Assembly: GCF_900115675.1 (NCBI RefSeq) | Contig: NZ_FOXI01000001.1 | Span: 372,001 to 436,000 of the forward strand | Length of the DNA stretch: 64,000 nt | Reading direction: 5' to 3' | Source of the DNA: Halolamina pelagica | Lineage (GTDB): Archaea > Halobacteriota > Halobacteria > Halobacteriales > Haloferacaceae | Part shown: positions 2,095 through 13,048 of the stretch, one piece after another | How the letters are laid out: every line of letters begins with the position of its first letter | Numbering within the stretch: the first letter of the stretch is position 1 | Made by a program: the position numbers and the translations under genes | The notes under the pieces: generated by a model | Database searches by the model: none | The model's input: the letters and a program-made list of their open reading frames with translations, nothing else | Told to the model about the DNA's origin: nothing

Positions 2095-2106
2095 CGAACA
2101 TGGTCG
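2095..2106. promoter_or_regulatory. near-palindrome CGAACATGGTCG upstream of minus-strand DUF2249 gene
   Basis: One mismatch from CGAAC-N2-GTTCG. Its centre lies about 45 nt from the start at 2056 on the minus strand. Read on that strand it is followed by GCACAACC, matching the promoter at 1515-1534. Confidence 0.55.
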
Positions 2107-2130: not shown

Positions 2131-2142
2131 CGAACATGTTCG
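2131..2142. promoter_or_regulatory. palindrome CGAACATGTTCG upstream of the HTH_10 regulator
   Basis: Perfect CGAAC-N2-GTTCG palindrome centred 50 nt before the ATG at 2187. A TATA-like GTTATCC lies between, about 30 nt before the start. If the regulator binds this site it would control its own gene. Confidence 0.65.
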
Positions 2143-2186: not shown

Positions 2187-2852
2187 ATGCCCGAAGCGAA
2201 ACTCACGCTCACGATCCCGGAGCGGACCTGGCCCGGCGAGATCTCCCGGACCCACGACGACGCGACGATCCGGATCCTGGCGGCGATGACCGAGACCGAC
2301 GCCGGGGTCGGGTTGGCGGAGATCGCCGCCCCCGACCCCCGGCAGGTTCTCGCCGACGTCCGCGCACACGACTCCGTCGACGACGTCGAGGTGCTCCAGT
2401 GTGGCGACGACGAGTGTCTCCTGCAGTTCCGAACCCACCTCCCGCTGTTGTTGCTGGCCGCCCGTGACTCGGGGCTCCCGCTGGAGATGCCGTTCGAGAT
2501 CCGCGACGGCGACGCGACGTGGACGCTGACCGCCGCCCAGGACGCCATCTCGGAGCTGGGCGACCAGCTCTCGGCGCTGGGGATCGCCTACACCGTCGAC
2601 TACCTCCAGCAGGAGGTCGCCGGCTCGGAGGAGCTGTTGACCGACCGCCAGCGCGCCATCGTCCGCGCGGCGATCGAGCGCGGCTACTACGACACGCCCC
2701 GGGAGTGCTCGCTGACCGAACTGGCCGACGCCGTCGGGCTCGCGAAGTCGACGGCGAGCGAGACGCTCCACCGCGCCGAGGAGCGCGTGATGAAGGAGTT
2801 CGCCGCCGCGGCCCTGGAGGAGCCGGAGCCACAGGCCGTCATCGAGCGGTAG
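2187..2852 (+). CDS. Bat-type HTH_10 transcriptional regulator
   Basis: A 221-residue regulator. Residues 1-150 resemble the Bat-type sensor region found in bacterio-opsin-activator-like proteins. Residues 160-215 form the HTH_10 DNA-binding domain: LTDRQRAIVRAAIERGYY, then a predicted helix-turn-helix LTELADAVGLAKSTASETLH. The frame extends 35 codons upstream, but the ATG at 2187 fits a leaderless transcript from the TATA-like element near 2157. The N-terminal half has CGDDEC rather than an obvious four-cysteine oxygen-sensing motif, so it is not clearly NarO. It is the closest regulator to the palindrome-controlled genes and to halocyanin-nosZ, and is the leading candidate for the local activator. 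That link is inference. Confidence 0.82.
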   Translation: MPEAKLTLTIPERTWPGEISRTHDDATIRILAAMTETDAGVGLAEIAAPDPRQVLADVRAHDSVDDVEVLQCGDDECLLQFRTHLPLLLLAARDSGLPLEMPFEIRDGDATWTLTAAQDAISELGDQLSALGIAYTVDYLQQEVAGSEELLTDRQRAIVRAAIERGYYDTPRECSLTELADAVGLAKSTASETLHRAEERVMKEFAAAALEEPEPQAVIER

Positions 2853-10179: not shown

Positions 10180-10263
10180 GCGTCGGTCGTGGAGAGAGAT
10201 GGTGTCGTTCACCCATGGCATCGATAGCTCATTCTACTGCCCTGGGACACCAGTCGGTGCTGC

Positions 10264-10275
10264 CGAACATGTTCG
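10264..10275. promoter_or_regulatory. palindrome CGAACATGTTCG, distal site
   Basis: Perfect palindrome, identical to the one at 2131-2142, placed 37 nt upstream of a second copy before the DUF2249 gene at 10352. Confidence 0.6.
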
Positions 10276-10300
10276 CACGCGGGCCTCCAGCACCCCGAGG

Positions 10301-10312
10301 CGAACACGTTCG
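10301..10312. promoter_or_regulatory. palindrome CGAACACGTTCG, proximal site of DUF2249 gene
   Basis: Perfect palindrome centred 45.5 nt before the ATG at 10352. The flank GGAGCAAC resembles GGCACAAC at 1526-1533. A weak TATA-like CTTTCT lies near 10320. Confidence 0.68.
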
Positions 10313-10351
10313 GAGCAACTTTCTGGGCCCGGCGCGTGCGAGGGAAAACAG

Positions 10352-10585
10352 ATGTCCGATACGACTCTCGACGTCCGCGACGTGCCGCCGTCGGACCGCC
10401 ACCCGAAGATCCACGACGCCTTCGCGGCGCTCGACAGCGGCGACGAACTGGTGATCGTCAACGACCACGAGCCCAAACCGCTGTTCTACGAGATGCAGGC
10501 CGAGGTCGAGGCGTTCGACGCCGACGGCTACGCGGTCGAACAGCGCGCCGACGACGAGTACGTGGCGCGGTTCCCCAAACAGTAG
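10352..10585 (+). CDS. DUF2249 domain protein
   Basis: A 77-residue protein consisting of one DUF2249 domain: TLDVRDVPPSDRHPKIHDAF, ELVIVNDHEPKPLFYEMQAEVEAF, and a last strand DEYVARFPK. The HEPKPLFYEM segment corresponds to FEPEPLYAVL in the copy at 1841-2056. The open frame extends to 10199, but the ATG at 10352 matches the domain boundary and the conserved spacing from the palindrome. It is followed after 88 nt by the histidine-rich membrane protein gene, which has its own palindrome, so the two may be co-regulated rather than strictly one operon. Confidence 0.85.
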   Translation: MSDTTLDVRDVPPSDRHPKIHDAFAALDSGDELVIVNDHEPKPLFYEMQAEVEAFDADGYAVEQRADDEYVARFPKQ

Positions 10586-10623: not shown

Positions 10624-10635
10624 CGAACGTGTTCG
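10624..10635. promoter_or_regulatory. palindrome CGAACGTGTTCG upstream of histidine-rich membrane protein gene
   Basis: Perfect palindrome centred 44.5 nt before the ATG at 10674. A GTG inside the palindrome (10629) opens a longer frame but is not a credible start. Confidence 0.68.
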
Positions 10636-10673: not shown

Positions 10674-12032
10674 ATGAGCGCGATCCCGGGCGACGTGGAC
10701 CCCGACCGCCAGCCGCCGATGACGGTGCCGCTCCGGCACTTCCTCGTCGCGAGCGCGTTCCTCCCGCTGGGCGTGCTGGCCGGCGTCGCCGCCGTCGCCG
10801 ACTTCCGGCCGGGCCTGCTCTCGCTCGCACACGCCCACCTGCTGCTCGTGGGCTGGGTCTGTCTCACCATCGCCGGCGCGATGACCCAGTTCGTCCCCGT
10901 CTGGTCGGGCGTCGACCTCCACTCGACGCGGCTCGCCGCCCTCCAGCTTCCGCTGCTCGCCGGCGGCCTGCTCGGGTTCGCGGCCAGCCTGCTCCTGACG
11001 CGGCTCGCGCTCCTGCCCGTCTTCGGCGCGGCGATGCTGCTCGGCTTCTGGCTGTTCGTCTACAACGTCGGCCGGACGCTGGCCCGCGCGCGGCCGTTCG
11101 ACGTCACCGAGCGCCACTTCGCGCTCGCGCTCGGCTTCTTCGTGCTGGCGCCGCTGCTCGGCCTCGTGCTGGCGGTCGACTTCACGCACCCGCTACTGGC
11201 TGGGGGCCCAGTGACTCGCCCCGGCGTCGTCGCCGCCCACGCGACCCTCGCCGTCTTCGGCGCCGTGCTCACGACCGTCCTCGGCGCGCTCTACCAGCTG
11301 GGGACGATGTTCACCCAGACCGAGCTCCACGGCGTCGACGAGCCCCTCCGCCGGGTCGAGGAACTCGGCTTCCCGACGGGGGTCCTGTTGCTGGCTGGCG
11401 GGCGACTCGTCGGGTCGGCGTCGCTGGCCCGGGTCGGCGGCGCGCTCGTCGCGCTGGCGCTGCTTTCGTTCTCGATCGTGCTCGCGCGGCGGCTCTGGGG
11501 GACGGAAGTCGACCGGACGCCGATGCTCTCGCGGTACGCCGTCGTCGCGGCGGCGACGGCGCTGTGGGCCGCGCTCGCGCTGCCCGCGTGGCTCGCGGAT
11601 CCGCTCGCTCGCGCGAGCCTGCTGGGGGCTCCCGGGACGACCCACCTCCTCCTGCTCGGCGTCGTGGGGTTCGTCGTCCTCGGGACGGTTTATCACGTCG
11701 TCCCGTTCGTCGTCTGGGTCCACCGCTACAGCGACCGACTGGGGTACGAACCCGTGCCGATGGTCGACGACCTCTACGACGGCCGCGTCGCCGCGGCGGA
11801 CTTCTGGAGCCTCCTCGTCGGCGCTTCCCTGCTCGTCGCCGACGATCTGCTCGGGCTCCCGTCGGCCGCCTCTCCCGTCGGCGGCCTCCTCGCGCTCGTC
11901 GGGACGGTGCTGTTCGTCGCGAACGTCGTCGGCGTCGTCCGCGAGCACGCGCCCCAGTCCCTTCCCACGGTGCTGTTCGGCGACTGGGCGGCGGCGTCGG
12001 AGGCCGAACCCGGCCCCGTCGAGAGCGACTGA
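10674..12032 (+). CDS. polytopic membrane protein resembling heme-copper oxidase subunit I / NnrS
   Basis: A 452-residue protein with about 12 predicted membrane segments and histidines inside several of them: PLRHFLVASAFLPLG, LAHAHLLLVGWVC, VVAAHATLAVFGAV, THLLLLGVVGFVVLGTVYHVVPFVVWVHRY. This pattern recalls heme-binding membrane proteins of the cbb3 oxidase/NorB group and the NnrS family of nitric-oxide response proteins. It does not clearly carry the full six-histidine heme-copper set, so I do not call it an oxidase or NO reductase. The start at 10674 is set by the palindrome spacing and by the first real ATG. Regulation with the nos genes suggests a role in NO/N2O metabolism or heme sensing. 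Confidence 0.72.
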   Translation: MSAIPGDVDPDRQPPMTVPLRHFLVASAFLPLGVLAGVAAVADFRPGLLSLAHAHLLLVGWVCLTIAGAMTQFVPVWSGVDLHSTRLAALQLPLLAGGLLGFAASLLLTRLALLPVFGAAMLLGFWLFVYNVGRTLARARPFDVTERHFALALGFFVLAPLLGLVLAVDFTHPLLAGGPVTRPGVVAAHATLAVFGAVLTTVLGALYQLGTMFTQTELHGVDEPLRRVEELGFPTGVLLLAGGRLVGSASLARVGGALVALALLSFSIVLARRLWGTEVDRTPMLSRYAVVAAATALWAALALPAWLADPLARASLLGAPGTTHLLLLGVVGFVVLGTVYHVVPFVVWVHRYSDRLGYEPVPMVDDLYDGRVAAADFWSLLVGASLLVADDLLGLPSAASPVGGLLALVGTVLFVANVVGVVREHAPQSLPTVLFGDWAAASEAEPGPVESD

Positions 12033-12096: not shown

Positions 12097-12405
12097 ATGC
12101 CCGAGATCATCGCCATCGACGAGCTCGCCGAGGCACCACACGCCGAGGTGTTCGAGGAGCGACGACCACGGACCGTCCGCCTCGAACTCGACGCCGGCGA
12201 CGAGGTCCCGCCCCACACCCACCCCGGGACGAACGTCGTCCTCTACCTTCTCGACGGTCGCCTCGACCTCGCACTCGACGGCGAGACGCACGAACTCGAA
12301 CCCGGCGACGTCGCGCGATTCAGCGGGGAGCGGGAGATCTCGCCCCGTGCGGTCGAGGCGAGCACGGCGCTGATCGTGTTCGCGCCGACGACCGGGGGGT
12401 CGTAG
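12097..12405 (+). CDS. small cupin-domain protein
   Basis: A 102-residue single cupin. The metal-binding first motif is PPHTHPGTNVVLYLLDGRLDL, with two histidines in H-x-H form. The second motif is ELEPGDVARFSG. The N-terminus PEIIAIDELAEAPHAEVFEE is typical of haloarchaeal cupins of this size. No catalytic assignment can be made; small cupins may be dioxygenases, isomerases, or sensors. A GTG at 12088 would add three residues; the ATG at 12097 is preferred. It follows the membrane protein gene by 64 nt and converges with the gene ending at 12450. Confidence 0.85.
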   Translation: MPEIIAIDELAEAPHAEVFEERRPRTVRLELDAGDEVPPHTHPGTNVVLYLLDGRLDLALDGETHELEPGDVARFSGEREISPRAVEASTALIVFAPTTGGS

Positions 12406-12449: not shown

Positions 12450-12998
12450 TCAGAAGGGTGCGTCCGACGCGTCCGCGGCGCCGTCGTCCGCCTCGCCCGC
12501 CCCGTCCGGAACGGTTCCGGTCTCCCGGTACTCCTGTTCCAGCGAGCGCAACTGCTCGTTGACGGCGTCGCTCTCCTGGTGCATCGGCGCCGCACGGATC
12601 CGGACCAGATCGTAGTCGTGGCGGTCGCTGAGCCCGTTCCAGGCCCGGAACGCGCCGACGGTGAGGGTGTGGGTCTGCGGACAGAACGCCGTCGTCGGCG
12701 TGAACTCGGCGCGCAGCACGTTCCGCTCGCCGACCTCCTCGGCGTACCGGAAGCCCGCCCCGGGGTGTCGCGTGTCGAGGTTGAGGCGTGCCAGGTTGTA
12801 GCCGAAGGTCATGTCGTAGACGCCGCGCTCCTCGAACAGTTCGCGTGCGGTCCCGTGGACCGCGACGTGGGCGTCGTCGGTGAGGAGTTCGTGGCCGGCG
12901 AGGAACTCGCCGGGCTCGGGGAGGTGGTCCGGGACGAACTCGTCGTCATCGTCGAACGTCGCGTCGTCGTTGCCGCCGAAGGGGGAGAGTCCGGGCAT
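12450..12998 (-). CDS. MIP18/DUF59-like Fe-S assembly factor homologue
   Basis: A 182-residue protein. After an acidic N-terminal half, residues 105-170 read AEFTPTTAFCPQTHTLTVGAFRAWNGL, then a loop, APMHQESDAVNEQLRSLEQE. This lines up with the eukaryotic CIA2/MIP18 pattern FTPT-x2-HC, a following helix, and TPGTH-x4-AVN-x-QL, including the single conserved cysteine. MIP18/DUF59 proteins deliver Fe-S clusters to target proteins. The alignment is from memory and the N-terminal half is not recognised. The ATG at 12998 is chosen because a degenerate nos-type palindrome is centred 44.5 nt upstream, which ties the gene to the denitrification-linked set. It might support Fe-S targets needed under anaerobic conditions. 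Confidence 0.62.
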   Translation of the reverse strand: MPGLSPFGGNDDATFDDDDEFVPDHLPEPGEFLAGHELLTDDAHVAVHGTARELFEERGVYDMTFGYNLARLNLDTRHPGAGFRYAEEVGERNVLRAEFTPTTAFCPQTHTLTVGAFRAWNGLSDRHDYDLVRIRAAPMHQESDAVNEQLRSLEQEYRETGTVPDGAGEADDGAADASDAPF

Positions 12999-13036: not shown

Positions 13037-13048
13037 CGAACATCTGCG
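13037..13048. promoter_or_regulatory. degenerate palindrome CGAACATCTGCG upstream of MIP18-like gene
   Basis: One intact CGAAC arm and a decayed second arm, centred 44.5 nt before the minus-strand ATG at 12998. The spacing matches the other sites exactly. Confidence 0.45.

Follow-up and report, generated by a model that had tools for sequence, protein, structure and literature searches.

The MIP18/DUF59 superfamily includes CIA2/CIAO2B, SufT, PaaD and the N-terminal domain of ApbC. In eukaryotes, CIA2/CIAO2B and FAM96A belong to the CIA targeting complex, where CIA2 acts together with Cia1 (WD40) and Met18/MMS19. SufT homologues contain a single, strictly conserved and hyper-reactive cysteine (PMC4982691), and in human Cia2a the arginine R138 holds the tails of client proteins (PMC12991071). 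In haloarchaeal denitrification, the palindrome CGAAYATDKTYG is known from promoters of Haloferax mediterranei (PMC10062603, PMC11218638); its mutation lowers nos and nor promoter activity in this species (PMC10062603), whose nir/nor island is induced under denitrifying conditions (PMC11218638).

The gene described here lies in a 64-kb window, which is the whole stretch of DNA that was analysed, and encodes a member of a so far unnamed, divergent MIP18/DUF59 subfamily in the haloarchaeal denitrification regulon. The gene order in the window is the nos cluster (upstream, with genes for a plastocyanin-like protein, NosZ, NosD, and NosF- and NosY-like proteins), an HTH protein, a DUF2249 protein, a membrane protein and a cupin, followed by the MIP18-type gene on the opposite strand. 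The genes discussed below are the following:

12998..12450, minus strand: MIP18/DUF59-superfamily protein (MIP18-type protein), 182 aa, ATG start
10674..12032, plus strand: haem-copper-oxidase/NnrS-like membrane protein with some 12 helices; its gene and the MIP18-type gene converge
12100..12405, plus strand: cupin-domain protein, between the membrane-protein and MIP18-type genes
10352..10585, plus strand: single-domain DUF2249 protein, with likely start 10352 inside a longer ORF (10199..10585)
2187..2852, plus strand: NarO/DmsR-like regulator (Pfam HTH_10 on its homologue L091)

The nearest named orthologues of the MIP18-type gene are those of Halolamina rubra (85% identity) and Halolamina pelagica (78%). 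Members of the family are labelled as hypothetical in the annotated records examined, and no discussion of the family was found in the main texts examined on haloarchaeal denitrification, including PMC11218638.

Fold and superfamily placement

The core of the protein comprises residues ~43-160, with Cys106 in the sequence FTPTTAFCP, and is followed by an acidic C-terminus ending in SDAPF. The original prediction of an FTPT-x3-C core in this open reading frame was borne out, the TH...VN segment being shifted by one residue. Single-sequence and profile HMM searches of Pfam and NCBIfam found no family for the protein, and plain HMM searches of PDB sequences gave no real match. PF01883 had no matches at E<=10 to the protein or to any of 23 orthologues, and its gathering threshold was not reached; the same model detects three other DUF59 genes in this genome. 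Because this threshold was missed, the protein is filed as a divergent superfamily relative and not as a PF01883 member.

Profile-profile comparison (hhalign) of the core, taken as residues 45-166, with a reference set of 15 archaeal DUF59 sequences gave a score of 41.6 (E 2e-6, 85 columns). The controls stayed far below this value: shuffling the columns 100 times gave 20.7 at most, reversing the profile gave 13.3, and the highest score among 29 unrelated haloarchaeal families was 22.7. CIA2, as a positive control, scored 62.2 against the same DUF59 set. An AlphaFold2 model of the protein (mean pLDDT 89, pTM 0.83) was compared with PDB structures, and the best twelve matches of this predicted model were all MIP18/DUF59 chains. 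The top match was CIAO2B, the protein with which a comparison had been suggested at the outset (Z 9.3-8.6 over 107-126 residues, ~16-17% identity; rmsd 3.0-3.6 across 107-109 residues in the best-superposed rows). Lower Z-scores were obtained for DUF59 3lno (6.2), FAM96A (6.0), ApbC (5.6, 8zkc), TT1362 (5.2) and TM0487 (4.9), the first unrelated structure having a Z of 4.5. Foldseek E-values are modest (best 1.2e-3), so that the case for the fold is built on the agreement among the best-ranked matches together with the sequence profile.

That plain HMM searches matched nothing in Pfam, in NCBIfam or among PDB sequences could suggest that the likeness to MIP18/CIA2 is convergent or due to chance, in a protein of an unrelated family. 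We regard this as highly improbable, in view of a profile-profile score far above the controls and a list of structural matches headed by twelve MIP18/DUF59 chains. Absence of a DUF59 match in a profile search, which the original prediction had named as a refutation, was thus found with plain HMM searches, but was overturned by profile-profile and structure comparison. As these two agree, the FTPT-x3-C and H...N pattern can be taken as a real signature, and membership of the MIP18/DUF59 superfamily, as a divergent member, is well supported by the sequence profile and the predicted model.

Conservation was analysed in three alignments of the family, A1, A2 and A3, with 23, 85 and 82 sequences, respectively. 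The cysteine C106 (motif PTTxFCP), the conservation of which had been held crucial, is invariant in all three, and is kept in 83/83 loci checked, that of the most divergent paralogue (L115) among them. F99, P101 and T102 are likewise invariant in the family alignments, and H140 and N147 are conserved in at least 90% of the sequences. Besides the cysteine, five histidines (H44, H48, H78, H127 and H140) are invariant in A1, and these histidines and N147 are highly conserved across the alignments. H140 and N147 (AxMHxxSxAxN) align with CIA2 THxxExxVNxQL, with a one-residue offset relative to CIAO2B. The DPE motif has been lost, and is replaced by VYD(M/V/A/T)TF (VYDMTF in the window), in which D62 is invariant while the P and E are gone. 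Downstream of this position, around the second core motif, the family has an insertion, LNLDTRHxxAG. The N-terminal half, thought initially to be an acidic peculiarity of this one protein, turned out to be an extension (residues 11-60) that is conserved family-wide and mostly modelled with high pLDDT. Similarity of this extension to that of CIAO2B was considered and rejected, as a full-length profile comparison aligned solely from residue 51 on.

With CIA2/CIAO2B/FAM96A the protein thus shares the fold, including the C-terminal helix, the FTPT-x3-C motif, and the histidine and asparagine of TH...VN.QL, but it differs in the lost DPE, the longer conserved N-terminal extension and the tie to the denitrification regulon. 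A further difference is that the client-tail arginine of Cia2 (R138 in human Cia2a) corresponds to a variable position in the family (N147+8), occupied by Gln here, and because this pocket arginine is absent the protein is not filed as CIA2. Its description as eukaryote-like therefore holds for the fold, of which CIAO2B is the closest solved example, but does not extend to any special kinship: the family profile scores 25.3 with CIA2, lower than the 41.6 with archaeal DUF59, the CIA2 set being tiny (three sequences, of which human CIAO2B was compared with its PDB relatives). On account of this higher DUF59 score and the non-conserved arginine, it is safer to describe the family as a divergent archaeal branch within the superfamily. 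Stand-alone DUF59 proteins of the SufT/PaaD type, from bacteria and archaea, have a similar core with a single conserved cysteine, but the MIP18-type family is PF01883-negative, contains the LNLDTRHxxAG insertion and an extra C-terminal helix and tail, and shows a link to suf genes in a single locus only. The N-terminal DUF59 domain of ApbC/Mrp proteins has the same fold, whereas the MIP18-type protein lacks a P-loop NTPase domain and ApbC-type proteins are encoded elsewhere in the genome. Another haloarchaeal DUF59 protein, which PF01883 does detect (L142), carries, after its domain, the segment HETEINRGVNERL, which resembles CIA2 TH..AVNKQL, so that this element is not unique to the MIP18-type family.

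Distribution, promoter palindromes and neighbouring genes

Orthologues were found in 174 of the 293 genomes sampled from the order (~60%), and many haloarchaeal plasmids also bear a MIP18-type gene. In a phylum-wide sample of 247 genomes, a profile search gave matches in 27, every one inside the order; relatives outside the order were therefore rejected for this sample. Single genomes have apparently broken copies with internal stops or split frames (G004:C1:2705295-2705871, also G195 and G239).

A half-palindrome at a fixed distance from the start codon had been pointed out in the promoter of the MIP18-type gene; it was confirmed 38 bp before the ATG, a spacing at which orthologues carry the complete palindrome. 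Sites in the window near the genes listed above are the following, with distances counted from the end of the site:

13037..13048, minus strand: regulon palindrome variant CGCAGATGTTCG (in the orientation of the gene), 38 bp from the MIP18-type ATG
10624..10635, plus strand: regulon palindrome CGAACGTGTTCG, 38 bp from the membrane-protein start
10301..10312, plus strand: regulon palindrome CGAACACGTTCG, 39 bp from the likely DUF2249 start
2131..2142: perfect palindrome CGAACATGTTCG, upstream of the NarO/DmsR-like gene

A copy with one mismatch is present at 2095..2106 and, like the perfect palindrome, is located between a DUF2249 gene and the NarO/DmsR-like gene. CGCAGATGTTCG differs from CGAACATGTTCG by two mismatches. 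A site with at most two mismatches to CGAACATGTTCG occurs within 150 bp in 72 of 84 orthologue upstream regions (0.4% in shuffles), and in most of the 84 the palindrome ends 37-39 bp before the ATG. In the information profile of the orthologue promoters, the palindrome occupies positions -50 to -39 and is followed by TA at -28/-27, a layout expected of a leaderless haloarchaeal promoter. In the entire 64-kb window, 15 such palindrome sites were found, compared with 2.5 expected. From these promoter sequences, membership of the MIP18-type gene in the haloarchaeal denitrification regulon is well supported, and the protein encoded at 2187..2852 is the likely candidate for its regulator. In regulatory motif and kind of neighbourhood, the gene resembles those of the haloarchaeal denitrification accessory proteins, such as DUF2249 proteins and bacterioopsin-activator-like regulators (PMC11218638).

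Neighbouring genes were counted in 79 loci, up to 10 kb on either side. The membrane protein was found in 59 of these, a NarO-like protein in 40, a CGCGG RiPP in 38, a cupin in 36, nirK in 33, a TIGR04053 radical SAM protein in 28 and nitric oxide reductase in 14, and DUF2249 proteins are near the MIP18-type gene in at least 58. The nosZ gene was found in just five of the 79 loci, and proximity to nos is restricted to Halolamina-type loci and a few others. The originally proposed regulation therefore stands with respect to denitrification genes, but not as a nos-specific role, the best partners being the membrane protein and nirK. Over the 293 genomes, a MIP18-type gene is present in 131 of 145 genomes with nirK (P 1.8e-28) and in 70 of 79 with nosZ (P 1e-10), P-values that ignore shared ancestry. 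TIGR03479, the catalytic subunit of DMSO-reductase type II and an obvious Fe-S client, occurs in 55 of the 174 genomes with a MIP18-type gene, which is insufficient for a general client. The TIGR04053 radical SAM proteins and CGCGG candidate RiPPs that recur in these neighbourhoods (e.g. L107:14961-16100, minus strand; L112:12682-13035, plus strand) form a possible denitrification-linked peptide-modification system.

The membrane-protein partner and the C-terminal tail

The best genomic partner of the MIP18-type gene is the gene for the haem-copper-oxidase/NnrS-like membrane protein, which occurs in 173 of the 293 genomes: both genes are present in 169, the membrane protein alone in four, the MIP18-type gene alone in five and neither in 115 (P 1.6e-69, ignoring shared ancestry). 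The distance between them is at most 3 kb in 52 of the 79 loci and at most 300 bp in 27. Its predicted structure (pLDDT 90) matches the cbb3 oxidase subunit CcoN (Z 35.8) and NorB (Z 33.5). H55, H148, H189, H341 and H425 are invariant in the family, which includes homologues in loci L034-L113, and H22 is 98% conserved. In classical oxidases, the paired copper-ligand histidines fall in the region equivalent to residues 220-323; a conserved histidine was sought in this region of the family alignment, and was absent. The membrane protein hence looks catalytically incomplete, apparently without paired copper ligands, as judged from its sequence. The NnrS model was touched by two of 44 family members, and NnrS is reported to shield the iron pool against dinitrosyl-iron formation (Stern 2013, as cited in PMC11526790). 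HFX_2180, a COX-type protein of 440 aa encoded near nirK and found by proteomics in denitrifying H. mediterranei, has no firm role (PMC7754194), and may be the orthologue of the membrane protein.

This near one-to-one co-inheritance, with the close spacing in many loci, could mean that the MIP18-type protein is dedicated to the membrane protein, as an assembly factor or partner that acts in metal or haem insertion or as a cytoplasmic subunit, rather than being a general factor of Fe-S supply or repair. DUF59 proteins can indeed be client-specific, as are PaaD and HCF101. The order and strand of the two genes vary between loci, which argues against such a role, and haem or copper insertion would lack a known precedent, as we know of no MIP18 protein that inserts either; on balance we consider the explanation possible but doubtful.

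The MIP18-type family also has a conserved acidic C-terminal tail of the form -(A/S/T)PF. A -PF terminus, usually preceded by acidic residues, was found in 69 of its 83 members. Of 1581 further predicted ORFs in these neighbourhoods, no more than 15 end in -PF, and 12 of these 15 belong to a multi-DUF2249 family, of which all 12 members found have this ending. These proteins of 350-376 aa contain several DUF2249 repeats, end in -APF, -SPF, -TPF or -PPF, and are often encoded near the MIP18-type gene, in the following loci:

Multi-DUF2249 protein: L044, L049, L054, L059, L062, L069, L079, L083, L085-L087; L116, L177, L180

In the annotated plasmid loci, the tail was absent from the other coding sequences checked. 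It is not general to haloarchaeal DUF59/SufT proteins either, most of which end in FGLSV/I or similar, with ETPF in two close genomes alone. The occurrence of the same C-terminal peptide on two unrelated families suggests, at the sequence level, docking to a common partner. The multi-DUF2249 protein itself is weakened as a candidate for this partner, since its gene was searched for in the present genome and not found, although the tail is present; the partner is therefore probably another protein. Aromatic C-terminal peptides are used by eukaryotic CIA clients and Nar1 (PMC12991071), but with a different tail sequence and no pocket arginine in the MIP18-type protein, this parallel is an analogy only.

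The tail shared with multi-DUF2249 proteins, the lost DPE motif and the five invariant histidines and cysteine in A1 would also fit a protein that uses the MIP18 fold and its cysteine to sense NO, redox state or metal, or as a scaffold for these, with no cluster transfer. In this respect, a role in nitrate sensing has been proposed for DUF2249 proteins (DrpA, as cited in PMC11218638). Such a function is nonetheless unlikely, as the protein has no DNA-binding or signalling domain and the MIP18 fold otherwise serves Fe-S assembly.

Proposed role in denitrifying haloarchaea

The best explanation, to which we assign a probability of roughly one half, is that this denitrification-regulon MIP18/DUF59 protein acts in the supply or repair of Fe-S (metal) centres during NO production, paired with the membrane protein. 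This reading is based on the SufT-like fold with a single cysteine, the co-inheritance with nirK and the regulation, the pairing with a relative of NnrS, and the occasional presence of ric or sufB. Several observations point the other way: the frequent companions NirK and NosZ are copper proteins, the near-obligate partner is a predicted haem protein, the DPE motif is lost, and Fe-S neighbours are rare (ric in two, RLI in one and sufB in one of the 79 loci). A link through a general Fe-S gene neighbourhood was accordingly discarded, ric, RLI, sufB and ApbC being just sporadic.

Among these sporadic neighbours, the Fe-S repair gene ric or a split equivalent is found near the MIP18-type gene in two plasmids, and an extra sufB in one locus. 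Plasmid copies of the Fe-S ATPase RLI/ABCE1 that share a region with the MIP18-type gene are located at L177:8473-10284, L177:38972-40516 and L180:37957-39747; the two in L177 are on a single Natrinema plasmid that also has ric, and L180 has a hemerythrin/DUF542 pair at the position corresponding to ric in L177.

An Fe-S or metal-centre role of the MIP18-type protein is plausible, and cluster transfer is inferred. In the mechanism that we propose for Fe-S supply or repair, the operator would be bound by the NarO/DmsR-like regulator at low oxygen or in the presence of nitrogen oxides. The MIP18-type protein, presumably soluble and cytoplasmic, would hold or pass an Fe-S cluster or other metal by means of Cys106, aided by H140 and perhaps by H44/H48, and would in this way supply or repair Fe-S centres while the cell produces nitric oxide. 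The NnrS/HCO-like membrane partner may limit NO or iron damage, or may itself be a client, and the acidic -APF tail could dock the MIP18-type protein to a partner in common with the multi-DUF2249 protein. A more far-reaching proposal, which we put forward as speculative and rather improbable, is a dedicated CIA2-like haloarchaeal module for NO-producing respiration, in which the MIP18 protein would be obligately paired with its NnrS/HCO-like partner, and the -APF peptide, also present on the multi-DUF2249 protein, would serve as a tag for docking to a common hub. Such a tag would be comparable to, though different from, the aromatic C-terminal tags that the eukaryotic CIA targeting complex reads.

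Nitric oxide attacks Fe-S clusters in denitrification, and the accessory genes of the haloarchaeal pathway are just now being catalogued. The MIP18-type family would add a candidate step of Fe-S supply or repair to haloarchaeal denitrification. The near one-to-one pairing of the MIP18-type protein with the membrane protein provides a concrete gene pair, and the -PF tail a concrete candidate interaction. As a small MIP18 protein with a known natural stress and a single, strictly conserved cysteine, it may furthermore be useful for work on MIP18/DUF59 function.
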